Of a DNA stretch of 64,000 nt, positions 37,231 to 45,816 are shown piece by piece. The number at the start of each line of letters is the position of its first letter. Position 1 is the first letter of the stretch. The stretch is from Cyanobium sp. Tous-M-B4 (lineage in GTDB: Bacteria > Cyanobacteriota > Cyanobacteriia > PCC-6307 > Cyanobiaceae), in the NCBI RefSeq assembly GCF_024345395.1, contig NZ_JAGQBA010000003.1:248001-312000 (forward strand), given 5' to 3'. Under the pieces are notes generated by a model. It saw only the letters and a list, made by a program, of their open reading frames with translations, was not told the origin of the DNA and did no database searches. The position numbers and the translations under genes are program-made.

Positions 37231-37476
37231 ATGAACCGCCACCGCCCTATGGGCCGCTTGCTCCAACTGCTGACCGCTGCCCTGATGCTGCCCGCTGCCG
37301 CCCTGGCTCAGACCAGCCCTGGTGGAGGTGGGGTTCAGGCGCTATATCCCAGCAAGGCCGCGGCCGAAAAAGCCGCCAAGCACTTCCACTGCACCGGAGC
37401 GCACCAGATGGGCGATAAATGGATGCCATGCGCCAAACATGGCGATGGCCATGGCAGCCATATGCCGGCTCACTGA
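37231..37476 (+). CDS. Small secreted DUF3721-type protein
   Basis: 81 residues. The signal peptide ends about ALAQ (residue 27). The mature part contains YPSKAAAEKAAKHFHCTGAH followed by QMGDKWMPCAKH, the DUF3721 pattern with conserved WMPC, and a His-rich tail (HGDGHGSHMPAH). Spacing of Cys and His (CxxxH ... WMPCAxH) suggests a metal or heme-like ligand set. An alternative start is the Met at 37249. The next gene starts in the stop codon (TGATG) and carries a second copy of the motif. Confidence 0.78.
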   Translation: MNRHRPMGRLLQLLTAALMLPAAALAQTSPGGGGVQALYPSKAAAEKAAKHFHCTGAHQMGDKWMPCAKHGDGHGSHMPAH

Positions 37477-37901
37477 TGGCCAAGTGCGGCGACAAACCCA
37501 AGCTGCTGGCCATCGGCATCGCACCCCTGGGCATCATCTCGATCGGCATCGTGCCAATGGGGGTCGTGAGCATTGGGGTGGTGCCGATGGGCGTGCTGAG
37601 CCTCGGTGCCGTGGGCATGGGGGTGATCAATATCTGCGTGGTGGGCATGGGCATCGTGGTGGCTGGCATCAACGTGATGGGTATTTGGAACGCCGGTGCC
37701 AGCTCCCCCCACCAGCACCACCAAGCGGCCACCGGGACCCATACCCCAAACCTCTACGCCTACCCAAGCAAGCAGGACGCCCTGATCAAAGCCAAACAGC
37801 TGGGCTGCAACGGCGTCCATGCGATGGGTTCGCTGTGGATGCCCTGCGCCACCCATCCCGAGCTCGAGCCACCCCCAGCTGCGCATAGCCAAAGGCCCTG
37901 A
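37476..37901 (+). CDS. Hydrophobic pentapeptide-repeat protein with C-terminal DUF3721-like motif
   Basis: 141 residues. Positions about 12-75 are at least eleven tandem five-residue units of the form (I/L/M)G(I/V/A)xx, with alternating Pro and Ser at unit ends (IGIAP LGIIS IGIVP MGVVS IGVVP MGVLS LGAVG MGVIN). A linker with HQHH follows, then YPSKQDALIKAKQLGCNGVH and WMPCATH, the DUF3721 motif shared with the upstream protein. No classical A(D/N)Lxx pentapeptide is present. The repeat could be a hydrophobic solenoid or a membrane-inserted segment. Function unknown; metal-related context. Confidence 0.7.
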   Translation: MAKCGDKPKLLAIGIAPLGIISIGIVPMGVVSIGVVPMGVLSLGAVGMGVINICVVGMGIVVAGINVMGIWNAGASSPHQHHQAATGTHTPNLYAYPSKQDALIKAKQLGCNGVHAMGSLWMPCATHPELEPPPAAHSQRP

Positions 37902-37931: not shown

Positions 37932-38894
37932 TTGCTCTTGGCACAGCTGGCCACCGCCTGGGCGATTTTTCAGGGTTTGCTACTCGAAGCCCTGCCGTTT
38001 CTGCTGATTGGCGTTGGTATCGCCAGCCTGGCCCGCTGGCTGGCGCCTGGAGGTGCCTGGCTGCGGCAGTTGCCCGCCCACCCCCTGCTCGGGCCCCTCA
38101 CCGGTGCCGCCCTTGGCTTTGCCCTGCCCGCTTGTGAATGCGGCAATGTGCCGGTGGCGCGGCGGCTGCTGGCCGGTGGCGCCCCGGTTGGCACTGCCCT
38201 GGGCTTTTTATTTGCCGCACCGGTGCTGAATCCAATCGTGCTGGCCAGCACCTGGGCCGCCTTCCCCAACCAGCCCTGGCTGCTGGCGGCCCGCCCTGGA
38301 GCAGCCCTGCTGCTGTCGGTGCTGCTGGCCACGGTGCTGCGCCTGCTGCCCGAGGCCGAATTACTAGATCCGGTGCTACTTGAAGAACGGCGCCTGAGCC
38401 AGCCCTTGGCCCAGGTGGGGCTGCTGGAGCGTCGCAGCGGACTTGTGGGTGCCATCGACGCCAAGGTGCAGCCCATGAAGGTGGCGCGGCCGCCCTTACA
38501 GGAGGTGCTCCAGCACGGCAGCCGCGAATTTCTCGATCTGGCCGCCCTGCTGGTGCTGGGTTGTGCCATCGCCGCCACGGTGCAAACGTTGCTGCCGCGT
38601 AGCTGGCTGCTGGCGGTGGGGGGAGCTCCAACCATCTCTGTACTGAGCCTGATGCTGCTGGCGGTGGTGGTTTCGGTTTGCTCCAGCGTCGATGCCTTCC
38701 TCGCCCTGGGCTTCGCTGCCCAGGTCACCCCGGGAGCGCTTCTGGCCTTCCTGGTGCTGGGCCCGGTGGTCGACCTGAAGCTGCTGGGACTGTTCCGGGT
38801 GCTGTTCAAGCCCAAGGCCATCGCCCTCACCAGTGCCGCCGCAGCGGTGGCCGTGTTGGTGCTGGGGCAATGGGTCAATTTGCTGCTGCTGTGA
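37932..38894 (+). CDS. UPF0718/YcgR-like two-component permease subunit
   Basis: 320 residues with about eight helices. The family-like segment FALPACECGNVPVARRLLAGGAP (about residues 58-80) has the conserved Cys-Glu-Cys, and VCSSVDAFLALGFAA carries a second Cys/Ser/Asp motif. These are features of the permease DUF318/UPF0718 group. Its partner, the next gene, overlaps by TGATG. Homologous pairs in other bacteria are linked with Zur or metal stress. Direction and substrate are unknown. Confidence 0.83.
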   Translation: MLLAQLATAWAIFQGLLLEALPFLLIGVGIASLARWLAPGGAWLRQLPAHPLLGPLTGAALGFALPACECGNVPVARRLLAGGAPVGTALGFLFAAPVLNPIVLASTWAAFPNQPWLLAARPGAALLLSVLLATVLRLLPEAELLDPVLLEERRLSQPLAQVGLLERRSGLVGAIDAKVQPMKVARPPLQEVLQHGSREFLDLAALLVLGCAIAATVQTLLPRSWLLAVGGAPTISVLSLMLLAVVVSVCSSVDAFLALGFAAQVTPGALLAFLVLGPVVDLKLLGLFRVLFKPKAIALTSAAAAVAVLVLGQWVNLLLL

Positions 38895-39571
38895 TGCGCG
38901 CCTTCGCCCTGGGGCTGTGGGGAGCCGTGCTGCTGCAAAGCAGCCTCAGCGGCAGGCTGGATCTCTTGCTCAGCGGCGTTTTCCACCCACTAGTGGCGCT
39001 GAGCGGTGTGGCCTTGCTGCTACTGGCTGGCCTGCTGCTGGCTGAACTAGCGCGAAGGGGCCAGGGAAGCCCAGCCCCATCGCGACGCCAAGCCATCCCA
39101 AAAATCTGGTGGCTGAGCGCCGCAGTGGCTTTGCTGGTGTTGGCCATTCCCCCCAACCCCTCCTTCAGCACCCTGGCCGCCAACCGGCCCGCCGAGCTGG
39201 GCGATGAGACTGAGCTGAGCTTCGTGCTGCCGCCAGCCCAGCGCAGCCTCACCGATTGGGTGCGCTTGCTGCGCAGCCAACCCGACCCCAGCCTCTACGC
39301 GGGTGATCCCGTGCGGATCAGCGGCTTTGTCTTGCCCCAGCCGGGTGAGCCCCCCCAGCTAGCCAGGCTGCTGGTGCGCTGCTGTCTCGCCGATGCCACC
39401 CCGGTGGGCCTACCTGTGCGCTGGCCAGCCGGCCGGCCGCCCCGGGCGGATCAATGGCTGGCGGTGGAGGGCACCATGGCTATTGAGGAACGCAACGGCC
39501 AGAGCCGCAGCGTGGTGGTACCGCAGCGAATCACACCGATTGCCCGGCCCAAGCGGCCCTTGGAACCATGA
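38894..39571 (+). CDS. TIGR03943/YcgQ-like permease partner subunit
   Basis: 225 residues from the ATG at 38894, overlapping the preceding stop. Two or three membrane helices (about 1-20, 28-50 and 70-90) precede a soluble domain with PSLYAGDPVRISGFVLPQPG and LLVRCCLADATPVGLPV. The CC pair and the OB-like fold pattern are typical of TIGR03943 proteins, which pair with UPF0718 permeases. It probably forms the second half of a membrane complex. The next gene overlaps it by 4 bp. Confidence 0.82.
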   Translation: MRAFALGLWGAVLLQSSLSGRLDLLLSGVFHPLVALSGVALLLLAGLLLAELARRGQGSPAPSRRQAIPKIWWLSAAVALLVLAIPPNPSFSTLAANRPAELGDETELSFVLPPAQRSLTDWVRLLRSQPDPSLYAGDPVRISGFVLPQPGEPPQLARLLVRCCLADATPVGLPVRWPAGRPPRADQWLAVEGTMAIEERNGQSRSVVVPQRITPIARPKRPLEP

Positions 39572-40887
39572 CGGCCACGGGGCAACGGATCACGTTGGCT
39601 CTGGCAGCAGGACTTGCCCTGGCCTTGCTGCAGCAACAACTACTGCTACGACGCCCACCACGGCTGCTGGAGCTGGAGTCAAGCAGCGCCAGCTCCGGTC
39701 CAGCGGCCCTGGACCTGCGCTTCAGCCGACCGATGCGCAGATCCAGCCTGGTGGTCTCCAGCAGCCTGCAACCCCAGCTGGCCTGGACGTGGCTGGGGGA
39801 AAGCAACCCCCTGCGCCTGCTGCTGCTTCCAGGCCAAACCATCCCCGGACCATTGCGGTTGCTGCTGGCAGGGGTCGACCGCCGCAACCTGCCGCTGCGC
39901 CGCCAGCAGTGGCTCTGGGACCCCCGGCCGCGCTTGCTGGCGGTGGTGCCCGTGGCCGGCGGCGAACAGCTGCAGCTGCAACGGCGCGATGGCAGCTGGC
40001 AGGCGCTGACCCCGGTGTGGCCGCAGCTGGCCCAAGTGCAGCCCCTCGGTAACGGTGCCGGTGTGGCCCTGCTCAGTGGTGATGGCATGGGCAGCCACCG
40101 TCTCTGGCTGCTGCCGCTGCAGCAACACAACCTGGTGCGCGAACCGCAGCGCCTCTCCGAACCCGTGGCGGGTGGGCTGCAACCCCTAGACGACGCAGAC
40201 CTGCTGTTTGCCCACCTGAGCAGCAACCGACGCGGCGACCTGCTGGTGCAATCGTCCACCACCGCCCTGGATCCGGGCAGCACCAGCGTGCGTTCCGCCC
40301 AGGGGCGCCAATGGTCCCTGCCCCACTCTGCTTCTGGCCCCATGCAGCTGCTCCCCGAGGGAGGCGGGGTAGTGGTGCCTGAGCTTGAAGGCCTCACCCT
40401 GCACAACCTGCCGGGCCAGCCCAGCCGGCGCCAGCTGCTGCCTGGCAGTAGGGAACTCAGCAGTTTCTGCCCCGTGAGCGGCCGCGCCCTGCTGGTGCGT
40501 CACTGGCCCGACTACCGGCGCTCCCTAGAGCTGGTGGAGCCTGGCCAACCGCCGCGGCAGCTTTGGATCGGCAGCGAAGCCGTTCTGGCCAGCGCTTGCG
40601 ACCGGGGTGGGGATCGGGTCTGGCTGGTGGTGAGCAACTGGTCCCAGGGATCCCAGCCCCTGATGCTGGCCCTCGATCGCCGCGGCCAACTGCTCAAGCA
40701 ACGCTCCTTGAAGGGCTGGGAGGTAGAGCCGGGAGCGCCGATGTTGTTTGATACCACCCGCCAGCAGCTGCTGCTCACCCTGCGCTCAGGCAGCCACGCC
40801 AAGCCGGTGCTGGTGGATGGCAGCAGCCTGAGCCTGCACCCCCTGGCCAAGCCGGTGCGCCTGGCTCTGTGGCTACCGGCAGGCTGA
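39568..40887 (+). CDS. Large hypothetical protein, possible Ig-like plus propeller repeats
   Basis: 439 residues. An N-terminal hydrophobic anchor or signal (about 8-28) is followed by a segment with LDLRFSRPM, as in bacterial Ig-like domains. The rest is a long series of short beta blades with W/L-rich motifs (HRLWLLPLQQHN; DLLVQSSTTA; LWIGSEAVLAS; DRVWLVVSNWS), compatible with a beta-propeller on the outer face of the membrane. No named family is recognised. It overlaps the TIGR03943 gene by ATGA and ends 15 bp inside the convergent znuB, so it closes the permease operon. Confidence 0.7.
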   Translation: MTATGQRITLALAAGLALALLQQQLLLRRPPRLLELESSSASSGPAALDLRFSRPMRRSSLVVSSSLQPQLAWTWLGESNPLRLLLLPGQTIPGPLRLLLAGVDRRNLPLRRQQWLWDPRPRLLAVVPVAGGEQLQLQRRDGSWQALTPVWPQLAQVQPLGNGAGVALLSGDGMGSHRLWLLPLQQHNLVREPQRLSEPVAGGLQPLDDADLLFAHLSSNRRGDLLVQSSTTALDPGSTSVRSAQGRQWSLPHSASGPMQLLPEGGGVVVPELEGLTLHNLPGQPSRRQLLPGSRELSSFCPVSGRALLVRHWPDYRRSLELVEPGQPPRQLWIGSEAVLASACDRGGDRVWLVVSNWSQGSQPLMLALDRRGQLLKQRSLKGWEVEPGAPMLFDTTRQQLLLTLRSGSHAKPVLVDGSSLSLHPLAKPVRLALWLPAG

Positions 40888-41685
40888 TAGGCGCCGGTGC
40901 TGCAGGGAGGCCAGGGGCAGCAGGCCCATGCAGAGCACCCCGATCAGGGGGCCGGGCGGCAGGTTCACAGCTGGCTGGATCGCCAGCAGAAAGCCGCCAC
41001 CGCTGATCCCCATACCCACCAGGGCCGAGCGCCACAGGGCCTGGCGCAGGCTGGCGGCTCCAGCCAAGGCCACTAGGGCCGGAGCACCCATCAAGGCAAT
41101 CACCAGCACCACCCCCACGGCGGTCATGGCGCTCACCACCGTGAAGGCCGTCACCAGGGTGAGCAGCAGCCGCAGCCGCTGCACCGGCAAACCAGCACTG
41201 GCGGCGCCGAGGGGATCCACCCCCAGATACACGTAGTGATGATAGCGCCAGGCGAGCAGCAGCAGCACCGCCACCAGGGCCAGCAGGCTGCGCAGCAGGT
41301 CGGCAGGAGCGGCGGCCAGCAGATCGCCAAACAGCACCGCCTCCAGATCGACCCGGATGTGCAGCAGGGGAATCAACAGCACCCCTAAACCGAGAAAGCC
41401 AGCCAGCACGGTGTTGAGCACCGCCTCATCGCCCCCTTCACCAGAACGATCACCGCGGCTGAGCCGCTCCGCCAACAGGGCACCGGCCAGGCCGCTGATC
41501 ACCCCACCGAGGCCCGGATCAAGCCGCAGGGCCAGCGCCAGCGCCAAACCCGGCAACACCGCGTGCGACACGAGATTCGCCAGGAACAGGCGCCGCTGCA
41601 CCAGCAGCAAGGTGCCGGCCAATGGGCAGAGGCCGCCGATCACCAGCGCCAGCACCAGGGGCAGCAGCCACCAAAGAGTCTCCAT
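40873..41685 (-). CDS. znuB: Zinc ABC transporter permease ZnuB
   Basis: 270-residue ABC-3 family permease with about eight helices. Typical stretches are GGLCPLAGTLLLVQRRLFLANLVSHAVLPGLAL near the N-terminus (about 17-50) and VVSAMTAVGVVLVIALMGAPALVAL near residue 190. It would import Zn2+ together with ZnuC and ZnuA. On the minus strand it follows znuC, but the zur gene lies between them on the opposite strand, leaving only 34 bp between the znuB and zur start codons. Confidence 0.93.
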   Translation of the reverse strand: METLWWLLPLVLALVIGGLCPLAGTLLLVQRRLFLANLVSHAVLPGLALALALRLDPGLGGVISGLAGALLAERLSRGDRSGEGGDEAVLNTVLAGFLGLGVLLIPLLHIRVDLEAVLFGDLLAAAPADLLRSLLALVAVLLLLAWRYHHYVYLGVDPLGAASAGLPVQRLRLLLTLVTAFTVVSAMTAVGVVLVIALMGAPALVALAGAASLRQALWRSALVGMGISGGGFLLAIQPAVNLPPGPLIGVLCMGLLPLASLQHRRLSACR

Positions 41686-42160: not shown

Positions 42161-42856
42161 TTAACCGCAGCAGTGATTGCCTACCCGCAGGTCGCCGAGG
42201 GCTTGGCGCACCTGCTGGGGGCTGCCGTCGGCGAGCAACGAGTGATCGAGCACCAGCACCCGGTCGTAGGCGTCGAGGTCGCGGCCCCAGTCGTGGCTGC
42301 TCACCAGCAGGGTGAGACCGGCATCGCGCAGCTGGCCCATCACCTTGAGCAGCTGGGTGCGTGAAGGGGGGTCGATGGCAGCGCAGGGCTCATCCAGCAG
42401 CAGCAGCCTGGCTGGCTGCACCAAGGTGCGGGCCAGCAGGGCTCGCTGCTGCTGGCCACCGGACAACTGATCCAGGCGCCGGCCCGCCAACCCGGCCAGG
42501 CCGACCCGCTGCAGGGCTGCTTCCACATCACAGCAGCCAGGACGCTTGGCGGCCATCCGCCCCAAGGCCACCAACTCCCGCACACTGATAGGAAAGTGCC
42601 AGGCGATCTCCCCCCGCTGGGGCATCAGGGCCAACTGCTGTCGCGCCAGGGCCAAGGTAAGGGGCACCCCATCGAGCCGGATCGAACCGCTCTCGATCGG
42701 CAGCTGACCCTCAATGGCCTGCAGCAGGGTGCTTTTGCCGGCGCCGTTGGGGCCCACCAGGGCGGTGAGCGTGCCGGGCTCGAGCGCAAAAGCCACGCCG
42801 TCGAGAGCAAGGTCGCCGCCGCGGCGCACCCGCAGCTCACTCACCTCAAGCGACAC
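42161..42856 (-). CDS. znuC: Zinc ABC transporter ATP-binding protein ZnuC
   Basis: 231 residues: Walker A GPNGAGKST (about 35-43), signature LSGGQQQR, Walker B LLLLDEPCAAID and switch His in LLVSSHDWGRD. The C-terminus ends in HCCG. It sits 26 bp after an uncharacterised membrane-protein gene on the same strand and upstream of znuB beyond the antisense zur. The start ATG is at 42856. Confidence 0.92.
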   Translation of the reverse strand: MSLEVSELRVRRGGDLALDGVAFALEPGTLTALVGPNGAGKSTLLQAIEGQLPIESGSIRLDGVPLTLALARQQLALMPQRGEIAWHFPISVRELVALGRMAAKRPGCCDVEAALQRVGLAGLAGRRLDQLSGGQQQRALLARTLVQPARLLLLDEPCAAIDPPSRTQLLKVMGQLRDAGLTLLVSSHDWGRDLDAYDRVLVLDHSLLADGSPQQVRQALGDLRVGNHCCG

Positions 42857-43941: not shown

Positions 43942-43962
43942 TGAGAACCATTATCATTCGCG
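43942..43962. promoter_or_regulatory. Putative Zur box between znuA and the znuC operon
   Basis: Contains TGAGAACCATTATCA (43942-43956), close to a palindrome of the Fur/Zur type, followed by TTCGCG. It matches 15 of 21 positions with a second site at 45051-45071. It lies in the short divergent gap upstream of znuA, so one bound dimer could repress both directions under zinc sufficiency. Confidence 0.7.
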
Positions 43963-43980: not shown

Positions 43981-45030
43981 ATGCCTCATATCCCCTCTCC
44001 CGCTGCTGCCTCTCCCGCTGCTGCCTCTCTCGCTCTGGCATTGGCAGCAGCCGTAGGACTGCAGGCTTGCCGCACTCCCCCACCGGCCGACGTGATCGCT
44101 GCCGACGGAGTCCTTTGCGACCTGACACAACGCCTGGCCGCCAGCGACCTACGGGTGAGCTGCCTTTTGCAGCCGGGCGACGACCCCCATCAATTCCGGC
44201 TAACACCCCAGCAGAGCCGGGAGCTCAGCCAGGCCCAGCTGGTACTGATCAACGGCTTCGGCCTCACCCCAGCCCTGGCCGAACTGACCAAGCCGGGAAC
44301 AAGCCGGACCAAAACCGTAGCCGTAGCAGAGCTAGCCGTACCCAACAGCCCCGTCCTAGAGGCTGCGCCGCCCAAGACCGCCGATTCTCACCAGCACCAC
44401 GATGAGGATGGCCAGCACCACGATCAAGATGAGCATGCCCATGGCGACAGGGATCCCCACGTGTGGCACGACCCAAACCAGGCGGCCGCCCTGGTGCTGC
44501 TGGTGGCCCAGCAACTTCAGCAGCTAAAGCCTGCCGCCCAAGCCCCCATTGCCGCCCGGGCCCAGGCGATGACGGCGACCCTGCAGCAGCTGGACGCCTG
44601 GAACCGCCGGCAACTTGCCACCATTCCCACCGCCAGCCCCCTGGCCACCGGACACCGGGCCTTTGCCAGCCTGGCCCGGGCCTACGGACTGCAGGAACTG
44701 GCGGTGGTGGATGCCAGCAGCAGCAGCGACAACCTGCGCCCCCAGGCCTTCCAGGCCGTGCTGGAGCAATTGCGGCGCGAGCAGGTGCCGATGCTGTTCG
44801 CTGAACAGCTGCCTGCAGGCAAAGCGCTGCAGCGGGTCAGCAGCCTCAGCGGTGTACCCATCGCCGCCGCACCACTGGTGGCCGATGGTCTGGCAGCGGA
44901 ACCCGATGGGAACGGCAACCTGGTAGCCACCCTCGCCGCCAACACCTGCCTGATCGTCAACGGCCTAGGCGGCCGCTGCGACCCATCCGGCCAGCAGGCC
45001 CTGAGCCAGCGCTGGCAGGCCATCCGCTGA
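43981..45030 (+). CDS. znuA: Zinc ABC transporter substrate-binding lipoprotein ZnuA
   Basis: 349 residues. The lipoprotein signal ends in LQAC (Cys30). The cluster A-I fold carries zinc ligands at His70 (DPHQF), His160 (DPHVW) and the GHRAF His near residue 220. A His/Asp-rich mobile loop lies between (about 136-156, HQHHDEDGQHHDQDEHAH), typical of ZnuA. The Zur-type palindrome sits about 20 bp before the ATG at 43981. The porin remnant follows. Confidence 0.95.
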   Translation: MPHIPSPAAASPAAASLALALAAAVGLQACRTPPPADVIAADGVLCDLTQRLAASDLRVSCLLQPGDDPHQFRLTPQQSRELSQAQLVLINGFGLTPALAELTKPGTSRTKTVAVAELAVPNSPVLEAAPPKTADSHQHHDEDGQHHDQDEHAHGDRDPHVWHDPNQAAALVLLVAQQLQQLKPAAQAPIAARAQAMTATLQQLDAWNRRQLATIPTASPLATGHRAFASLARAYGLQELAVVDASSSSDNLRPQAFQAVLEQLRREQVPMLFAEQLPAGKALQRVSSLSGVPIAAAPLVADGLAAEPDGNGNLVATLAANTCLIVNGLGGRCDPSGQQALSQRWQAIR

Positions 45031-45050: not shown

Positions 45051-45071
45051 CGAGAATCGTTCTCATTCTCG
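45051..45071. promoter_or_regulatory. Putative Zur box upstream of the porin remnant
   Basis: The perfect inverted repeat CGAGAAT/ATTCTCG has 7 bp between the arms (45051-45057 and 45065-45071). The interior contains GTTCTCATTC, shared with the znuA site. It ends 33 bp before the remnant's GTG, a position expected for an operator. Confidence 0.68.
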
Positions 45072-45104
45072 CCATGCACTGGCTCCGTGCCTCGCTCCGC
45101 AGCC

Positions 45105-45816
45105 GTGAAAATTCGCCCAATCCTGCTGATTGCAGCAACTGCTGCTGGAGTACTGGCACCGGTAACCGCAGCTGCAGTTGAATTCGAGCTCGCTGACCTC
45201 AATACCTGCATCAGCCACTTCTCTGATCTGCGCCCCACCGACTAGGCCTATCAGGCGCTGACCAACCTGGTAGAGAAATACGGCTGCGTCGCCGGCTACC
45301 CCAACGGCAGCTTCAGAGGTGGGCAGGCCATGACCCGCTTCGAGGTGGGTGGCCGGTGTGGGTGTGCCCGATGCCACCCCCTTCATCACCACCCAGATCG
45401 AGACCAATCAGATCGAGGAGAACGGCGTCAACACCAATGCCTTAGGCATCAGCGGCTTCTGGCAGCCGGCCAAGAGAGGCTGGCTGCCCTCGATCAGCGC
45501 TGGTTACGGCGTCAACGGCAGCTCCGGCTCAGACCTGCCCACCAGCCAGTCGTGGATGGTGGGCCTGCAATGGAGCGATGTGCTGGCTGAGGGCAACAGC
45601 TTTGGCATGGGAGTGGGCCAACCCGCATTTGCAACCGCCACCCGCAATGGGGCTACCAGCGAATCCGGCGTGTGGGCTTGGGAGTGGTGTTACCAGTGGC
45701 AGGTCACCGACGCCATCTCCGTGACTCCGGCGATCTTCGTGCTCAACAATCCTGGGGGTAATGGGGGTGGTGCCAACCAATTCGGTGCCCTGATCAAAAC
45801 CAGCTTCCAGTTTTGA
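45105..45816 (+). pseudogene. SLH-domain outer-membrane porin remnant
   Basis: The GTG at 45105 gives a signal peptide (KIRPILLIAATAAGVLAPV) and the start of an SLH domain. The reading then hits TAG at 45243 where the intact porin has Trp (RPTDW). SLH sequence continues (AYQALTNLVEKYGCVAGYPNG, GGQAMTRFE). At about 45340 it jumps, in another frame, to the C-terminal barrel (GISGFWQPAKRGWLPSISAGYG to LIKTSFQF, ending with the terminal Phe). Several hundred codons are missing. The gene is a deletion and nonsense remnant related to the intact porin at 47941. Confidence 0.85.

Follow-up and report, generated by a model that had tools for sequence, protein, structure and literature searches.

The closest working model for the gene pair described here is the YcnI-YcnJ system of Bacillus (DUF1775 and CopC-CopD), in which YcnI is reported to bind Cu(II) (PMC8424229) and to exchange copper with YcnJ (PMC12362106). 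The likeness that we propose is one of arrangement: two putative extracytoplasmic metal sites, one of them membrane-borne, encoded in one operon. YcnI also lies in a gene cluster with relatives of the repeat studied here, yet it shows no sequence relation to our two proteins, neither of which matches DUF1775, CopC or CopD at E up to 1 in a profile scan. Further reference points are PetR/PetP, described as the copper-dependent switch for plastocyanin and cytochrome c6 (PMC7896320, PMC12292863, PMC13421787), the Synechocystis proteins Slr0601 and Slr0602, listed in the PetRP regulon, which responds to copper (PMC7896320, PMC12382314), and the Zur regulon of Synechococcus WH8102, given as eight genes, several of them uncharacterised (PMC9337993).

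Two Pfam families complete the background. DUF3721 (PF12518) carries a description without a function, and the GLTT repeat (PF01744), for which Pfam likewise gives no function, is, like ours, a hydrophobic five-residue repeat with glycine. A full-text literature search for DUF3721 and the GLTT repeat returned no paper, and a pairing of DUF3721 with a GLTT-type repeat was not found described. The initial annotation had proposed an undescribed metal-handling unit; as far as the literature searched goes, the pairing is undescribed, while the repeat itself already belongs to a Pfam family.

The window, that is, the whole stretch of 64,000 nucleotides from Cyanobium sp. Tous-M-B4 that we analysed, contains two adjoining genes whose products share the DUF3721 domain:

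37231..37476, forward strand: exported partner, 81 residues, with a signal peptide and DUF3721 at residues 39-70 (PF12518, E 1.7e-15)
37476..37901, forward strand: gene of the repeat + DUF3721 protein, an open reading frame of 141 residues
37503..37691, forward strand: repeat region, residues 10-72, made of twelve hydrophobic five-residue units and periodic at ten residues (PF01744, GLTT repeat)
37761..37859, forward strand: C-terminal DUF3721 domain (PF12518, E 2.6e-16), with C111, H115 and C124 inside it and H127 at its edge

The TGA of the partner gene (37474-37476) overlaps the ATG of the repeat gene (37476-37478) by one base, in line with the coupling noticed in the initial annotation, whose placement of the repeat gene and of its C-terminal motif also proved right. 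That motif, CNGVHAMGSLWMPCATH, has its counterpart CTGAHQMGDKWMPCAKH in the exported protein, and the DUF3721 scores of the repeat protein (59.5 bits) and of the partner (56.9 bits) both exceed the cut-off of 27. The linker between repeat and DUF3721 domain contains PHQHH, and the C-terminal tail of the partner is likewise histidine-containing (GDGHGSHMPAH). With signal peptides and lipoboxes assigned by eye from sequence, the idea of a matched pair, one protein exported and one hydrophobic, was supported.

The repeat starts with the units LLAIG, IAPLG, IISIG, IVPMG, VVSIG and VVPMG, continues with VLSLG, AVGMG, VINIC, VVGMG, IVVAG and INVMG, and is closed by IWN. These are twelve full units, where at least eleven had been claimed; nearly all end in glycine, and S-I-G and P-M-G ends take turns in the first half, in agreement with the proline/serine alternation first noticed. 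Self-identity reaches 0.34 at lag 5 (maximum 0.31 in 10,000 shuffles) and 0.49 at lag 10, so the natural repeat unit is ten residues. Mean hydropathy over the 63 residues is 1.95, and it is plausible that the protein is inserted in or attached to a membrane.

The five-residue unit is shared with classical pentapeptide repeats, from which the initial annotation had set the repeat apart. At the level of profiles that distinction stood: PF00805 was absent from the profile matches at E up to 1, and Pentapeptide_2 (PF01469) gave only E 0.57, under its cut-off. A known Pfam repeat is nonetheless involved, as PF01744 matches in three stretches (51.6 bits, E 6.8e-14, cut-off 21) and scores 38.9-71.5 bits in four relatives. 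The present repeat differs from PF01744 in its true period of ten, its near-fixed length, its fusion to DUF3721 in picocyanobacteria and, in most of its wider relatives, a ladder of His and Met.

Structure prediction, suggested as a check, was informative for one part of the protein only. AlphaFold2 modelled the DUF3721 domain fairly (mean pLDDT 75, 85, 84 and 67 for the ten-residue blocks of residues 91-130), with a predicted helix at 99-109 and a hairpin at 115-122. The repeat received no confident fold, mean pLDDT being 55 for the whole protein and 57 for the repeat alone; the low-confidence repeat-only model places strands at 22-45, then a helix at 51-67, to be set beside the right-handed, four-sided beta-helix of classical pentapeptide repeats. 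Comparison of the whole-protein model with solved structures aligned four chains, none with Z of 2 or more, and a sequence search of solved structures returned EmrE at chance level only (E 0.28 and 0.74).

We surveyed the family of the window's organism, the Cyanobiaceae, for both proteins, and most of these tiny ocean and lake cyanobacteria carry the two-gene unit. Among the best 80 of 172 relatives, the named ones include Cyanobium, Synechococcus and Prochlorococcus (e.g. MIT 9302). From these 80 loci 75 proteins were extracted (five were missed by the pattern), and 62 of them were aligned with the window protein as alignment A1 (63 rows). The profile search proposed earlier, run with A1 at E 1e-10 or better, matched 100 of 121 family genomes and 66 of the 76 better ones; some matches are partial, covering for example the first part (G013), the DUF3721 part (G103) or the repeat part (G023, G100, G127). 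DUF3721 itself occurred in every one of 21 family genomes versus none of 173 other class members in one sample, and in 89 of 101 genomes in a family sample. Phage and plasmid sequences gave no match.

Across the 63 rows of A1 the repeat has almost constant length and C4, C111, H115, C124 and H127 are invariant; a second alignment, A2 (66 rows), has 24 invariant columns. Exceptions in length or frame are L075, which lacks two units, L062, which is short, and L052, with an in-frame TGA. Comparison of the window with its three near relatives indicates purifying selection on the repeat: the repeat gene has dN/dS of 0.09-0.21, with no more than 0.17 in the repeat region, and the less constrained partner gene 0.21-0.48. 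These values bear on whether the repeat might be a low-complexity artefact, a chance hydrophobic frame in GC-rich DNA. The antisense strand is partly open too, which would fit such an origin, but the low dN/dS, the Pfam matches and the presence of the same repeat in Prochlorococcus despite its other codon usage, together with the near-fixed length, reduce the likelihood of an artefact to a negligible level.

The pairing of the two genes is likewise widespread. Upstream sequence of 450 bases or more was available for 95 of 98 distinct repeat genes, the window's included, and in 89 of these 95 a DUF3721 protein lies upstream; the pair, whose lack of conservation would have spoken against the initial annotation, is conserved. 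The partner was missed upstream of the other six (L044, L048, L053, L060, L093 and L137). Because the detection profile was built from pattern-found partners of the same loci, the figure of 89/95 is no independent test of domain identity. Most partner proteins in Prochlorococcus have a lipobox (e.g. SLIGC, SLMGC) and those of Cyanobium a signal peptide, as judged by eye. Many Prochlorococcus partners have a His-rich end such as HDGHHHHH.

Variants of this architecture were also observed. In six Prochlorococcus or Prochlorococcus-like loci (L043, L051, L052, L054, L116 and L121), a repeat-only paralogue without DUF3721 lies directly behind the pair. At L060 (8422-8751) the repeat ends in a His-rich tail where DUF3721 would be expected, and so resembles the form found outside the picocyanobacteria; a search for an upstream partner at this locus found none.

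To the extent that a metal-binding protein is recognised by a conserved set of ligand residues, C111, H115, C124 and H127 are good candidates for such a set. With a search pattern that fixed W, P and M and left the four C-H-C-H positions free, distinct repeat-attached domains showed C-H-C-H in 88 of 89 cases and other domains in 80 of 84, or 168 of 173 overall, counting only copies that fit the pattern. Outside the pattern, a repeat-bearing copy (L213) has Met at the fourth ligand position. Two copies at L033 lack both histidines. Thirteen of 16 further DUF3721 loci encode stand-alone exported proteins that keep C-x3-H and W-x-P-C and lack the last histidine. In these thirteen (L067, L069, L195-L200, L205, L206 and L210-L212) a histidine directly follows the point where the signal peptide is presumably cleaved (e.g. 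ALA-HGKGLY, by eye), an N-terminal position that recalls the histidine-brace copper proteins.

A rival reading is a structural or assembly role. In that case the two cysteines would form a disulfide, the histidines would be structural, and the repeat would be a scaffold in the membrane on which envelope proteins or those of photosynthesis are held, with metal-related neighbours being incidental. The thirteen stand-alone proteins, which retain both cysteines and one histidine and not the fourth ligand, would suit this explanation, as would the two L033 copies and the diversity of genes beside the pair. Retention of C-H-C-H in 168 of 173 distinct domains speaks against it, as do the His-containing tails on the partner and on relatives, and the metal regulators and metal-binding proteins with which it is associated in different lineages; we regard a purely structural role as unlikely. 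The favoured reading is that the pair has a role with metals, to which the C-H-C-H residues, the His-rich tails and the metal-gene neighbours all point.

Downstream of the pair, the window encodes permeases and a zinc cluster:

37932..38894, forward strand: ArsP_1 permease (PF03773, E 3.1e-57), 30 bases downstream of the pair
38894..39571, forward strand: protein of the TIGR03943 permease-subunit family (DUF1980_C; TIGR03943, E 4.4e-50)
40873..41685, reverse strand: ZnuB-like ABC permease (ABC-3, PF00950, E 2.9e-42)
nearby zinc cluster: Zur, to 42121 (FUR, PF01475, E 6.5e-16); ZnuC, 42161-42856; ZnuA, 43981-45030

The names ZnuA, ZnuC and Zur are those that we presume from context; the NCBIfam models for ZnuB and Zur match the window proteins under their cut-offs.

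The metal-permease genes had been taken as a clue to function in the initial annotation, and this clue did not hold in general. Apart from the window, ArsP_1 and TIGR03943 adjoin the pair in no more than three of 40 loci, L036-L038, all near relatives, and the association is lineage-specific. We therefore dropped the two proteins as general functional partners and treat them as local neighbours. A 439-residue open reading frame (39568-40887) overlaps the TIGR03943 gene by 4 bases and is conserved in three near relatives; Pfam and NCBIfam searches with it at E up to 1 gave no match.

The zinc genes recur more broadly. In the window about 3 kb separate the pair from znuB, and at 19 of 97 distinct loci, whose gene orders are not all alike, a ZnuB homologue lies within 6.5 kb of the repeat; the examined stretch of the other 78, many of which end early at contig ends, contained none. 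CobW genes were found near the pair at six of the 97 loci, many of them shortened by contig ends. Such surroundings suggest zinc as the metal: the pair might buffer or deliver envelope zinc alongside ZnuABC, with C-H-C-H, a common zinc ligand set, as the zinc site. One Prochlorococcus gene order, however, accounts for many of the 19 ZnuB loci, and in the wider repeat family the adjoining genes are copper genes.

Regulatory sites also weigh against zinc. With an assumed consensus for the Zur box, the window yielded 12 matches at up to three mismatches versus 8.6 expected by chance. Sites resembling a Zur box lie beside the zinc genes at 43942 (one mismatch) and 45051 (two mismatches), and the window scan found none upstream of the pair (near 37231). 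Among 82 pair upstream regions, three had a match with at most two mismatches, compared with 3.8% of control stretches. ZnuABC/Zur uptake is a neighbour in the window and at 19 of 97 loci, but a site like its Zur box was not found at the pair, and on the two scans we rejected a Zur box as the pair's regulator. Zinc is, in our estimate, a less probable metal for the pair, although the likeliest after copper.

Other regulators adjoin the pair in several lineages. A MerR-type regulator is divergently transcribed near it at ten of the 97 loci, and a Fur-family regulator adjoins it at L056, L057, L072 and L137. The MerR proteins contain CNC and a C-terminal Cys; one of them scored 77.1 bits with the CueR model, 76.3 with CadR-PbrR and 74.7 and 71.7 with two zinc-responsive models, all under cut-off. 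The stretch between MerR gene and pair contains CCCTCYA in nine of ten cases and, 3-9 bases further on, TRGAA in six of ten (raw counts).

The divergent regulators (CueR/CadR/ZntR group) and their shared intergenic motifs would accord with detoxification, in which a MerR sensor induces the pair under excess metal, for sequestering rather than acquiring it. Against this, the operon partners that the repeat has in one genus of relatives (c-type cytochrome, YcnI and CopCD, see below) would point to low copper. Detoxification seems doubtful to us; since it overlaps the copper and zinc readings, the likelihoods assigned to them are not exclusive of one another.

Further genes near the pair were recorded in the same survey. 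Porins occur at 27 of the 97 loci, a count kept at that figure because the corresponding neighbour cluster C1 (36 loci) includes antisense or wrong-frame readings; clusters C7 and C14 were excluded as readings of that kind. Thirteen proteins of the porin cluster fit a His-rich pattern within their first 170 residues. In the window, a porin gene behind znuA (45051-45816) looks decayed, its frame being broken and stretches of the L038 porin missing; the L038 counterpart retains a long open frame, and the window copy adjoins the Zur-box-like site at 45051-45065. At seven loci (L088, L101, L104, L108, L110, L111 and L119) a small, apparently exported Gly/His-rich protein (ACGGGGSGSYRKP...QHQHQH) is encoded behind the pair, and the one scanned, that of L088, had no Pfam match. 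A protein of about 205 residues (cluster C2) lies near the pair at 22 of the 97 loci, including L047, L074, L124 and L125; the 160-residue part that was scanned gave no Pfam match.

Outside the window's family, the repeat was matched in 20 of 173 class members. We read 21 such loci, namely 18 of those 20 and three more, and kept 20 after L229 proved to be a different repeat. The two matched class members outside this set show the usual form (G140) and an early stop without the tail (G047, L066). The wider-family proteins are colinear with the picocyanobacterial repeat. In 16 of the 20, His occupies two (L227) or three alternate units and Met those that follow, in ten-residue steps; the ladder typically runs AHG, AHG, THG, then AMG, SMG, SMG, at positions where the window has PLG, PMG, PMG, GMG, GMG and VMG. 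The His ladder is absent from the remaining four (L214 and L230-L232), as it is from the picocyanobacterial repeat. After the repeat, at least three histidines are found in 19 of the 20 proteins and two in L226.

Gene order at these loci links the repeat with copper. In all six genomes of one genus, a c-type cytochrome gene directly precedes the repeat gene and YcnI (DUF1775, PF07987) follows it, with CopC-CopD next in three and a long CopD elsewhere in the other three. By its sequence features, the cytochrome presumably resembles cytochrome c6. At L220, and by sequence likeness at L221, the repeat is followed by a repressor of BlaI/CopY type and a protease of M48 type; they recall PetR/PetP, which is only a resemblance. 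A DUF411 protein lies near the repeat at L219 and a PepSY_TM protein at L225 and L227. When 46 of 58 chosen neighbour proteins were scanned, DUF1775 came first with four members among the 25 of 67 families listed; most of these 25 occur once, many are housekeeping families, and no other recurring copper family appeared among them at the remaining loci. DUF1775 was found in eight of 194 genomes overall, two of which (G170 and G206) gave no repeat match. The C-H-C-H conservation within the window's family, the His/Met ladder of the relatives and these copper contexts are, like the pairing, undescribed as far as our searches go.

Taking the candidate ligands, gene contexts and wider family together, our tentative first choice is that the two genes encode proteins that capture a metal ion and hand it over, copper being the likeliest metal. 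The wider family favours copper and the surroundings in the window favour zinc, and we rank copper first with modest confidence; counting against it, the copper contexts come from relatives that lack DUF3721, and the genus with six of six genomes is a single lineage. Moreover, short CopD-like proteins are present in 13 of 21 genomes of the window's family, its own included, and copper import there may therefore run by another route. The earlier proposal of metal handling is in keeping with the C-H-C-H residues, the His tails and the metal-gene neighbours, while the strongest link in the wider family is with copper, not zinc.

Under this copper hand-over reading, the exported partner would capture the metal outside the cytoplasmic membrane through its C-H-C-H residues and His-containing tail. 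The repeat protein would present a like DUF3721 domain on its very hydrophobic repeat, which we take to be membrane-attached, and the ion would be exchanged between the like domains, as YcnI does with YcnJ, through the latter's CopC domain, in Bacillus. The repeat, which in most relatives bears the His/Met ladder, may hold the site in place or assist in the onward transfer of the ion.

A bolder version would make the repeat a new membrane-embedded metal path, with His or Met every ten residues and copper passed between like domains, and would have the DUF3721 pair of picocyanobacteria assume the extracytoplasmic supply of copper to photosynthesis. YcnI (DUF1775) was found in none of the 21 family genomes sampled. 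We consider the bolder version quite improbable as a whole.

Collectively, the pair is a widespread unit of the picocyanobacterial family that has no described function and is tied by context to metal handling, which makes it a small, concrete and testable target. In the relatives, the cluster of c-type cytochrome, YcnI and CopCD genes connects the repeat family with copper and perhaps with the electron transport of photosynthesis.
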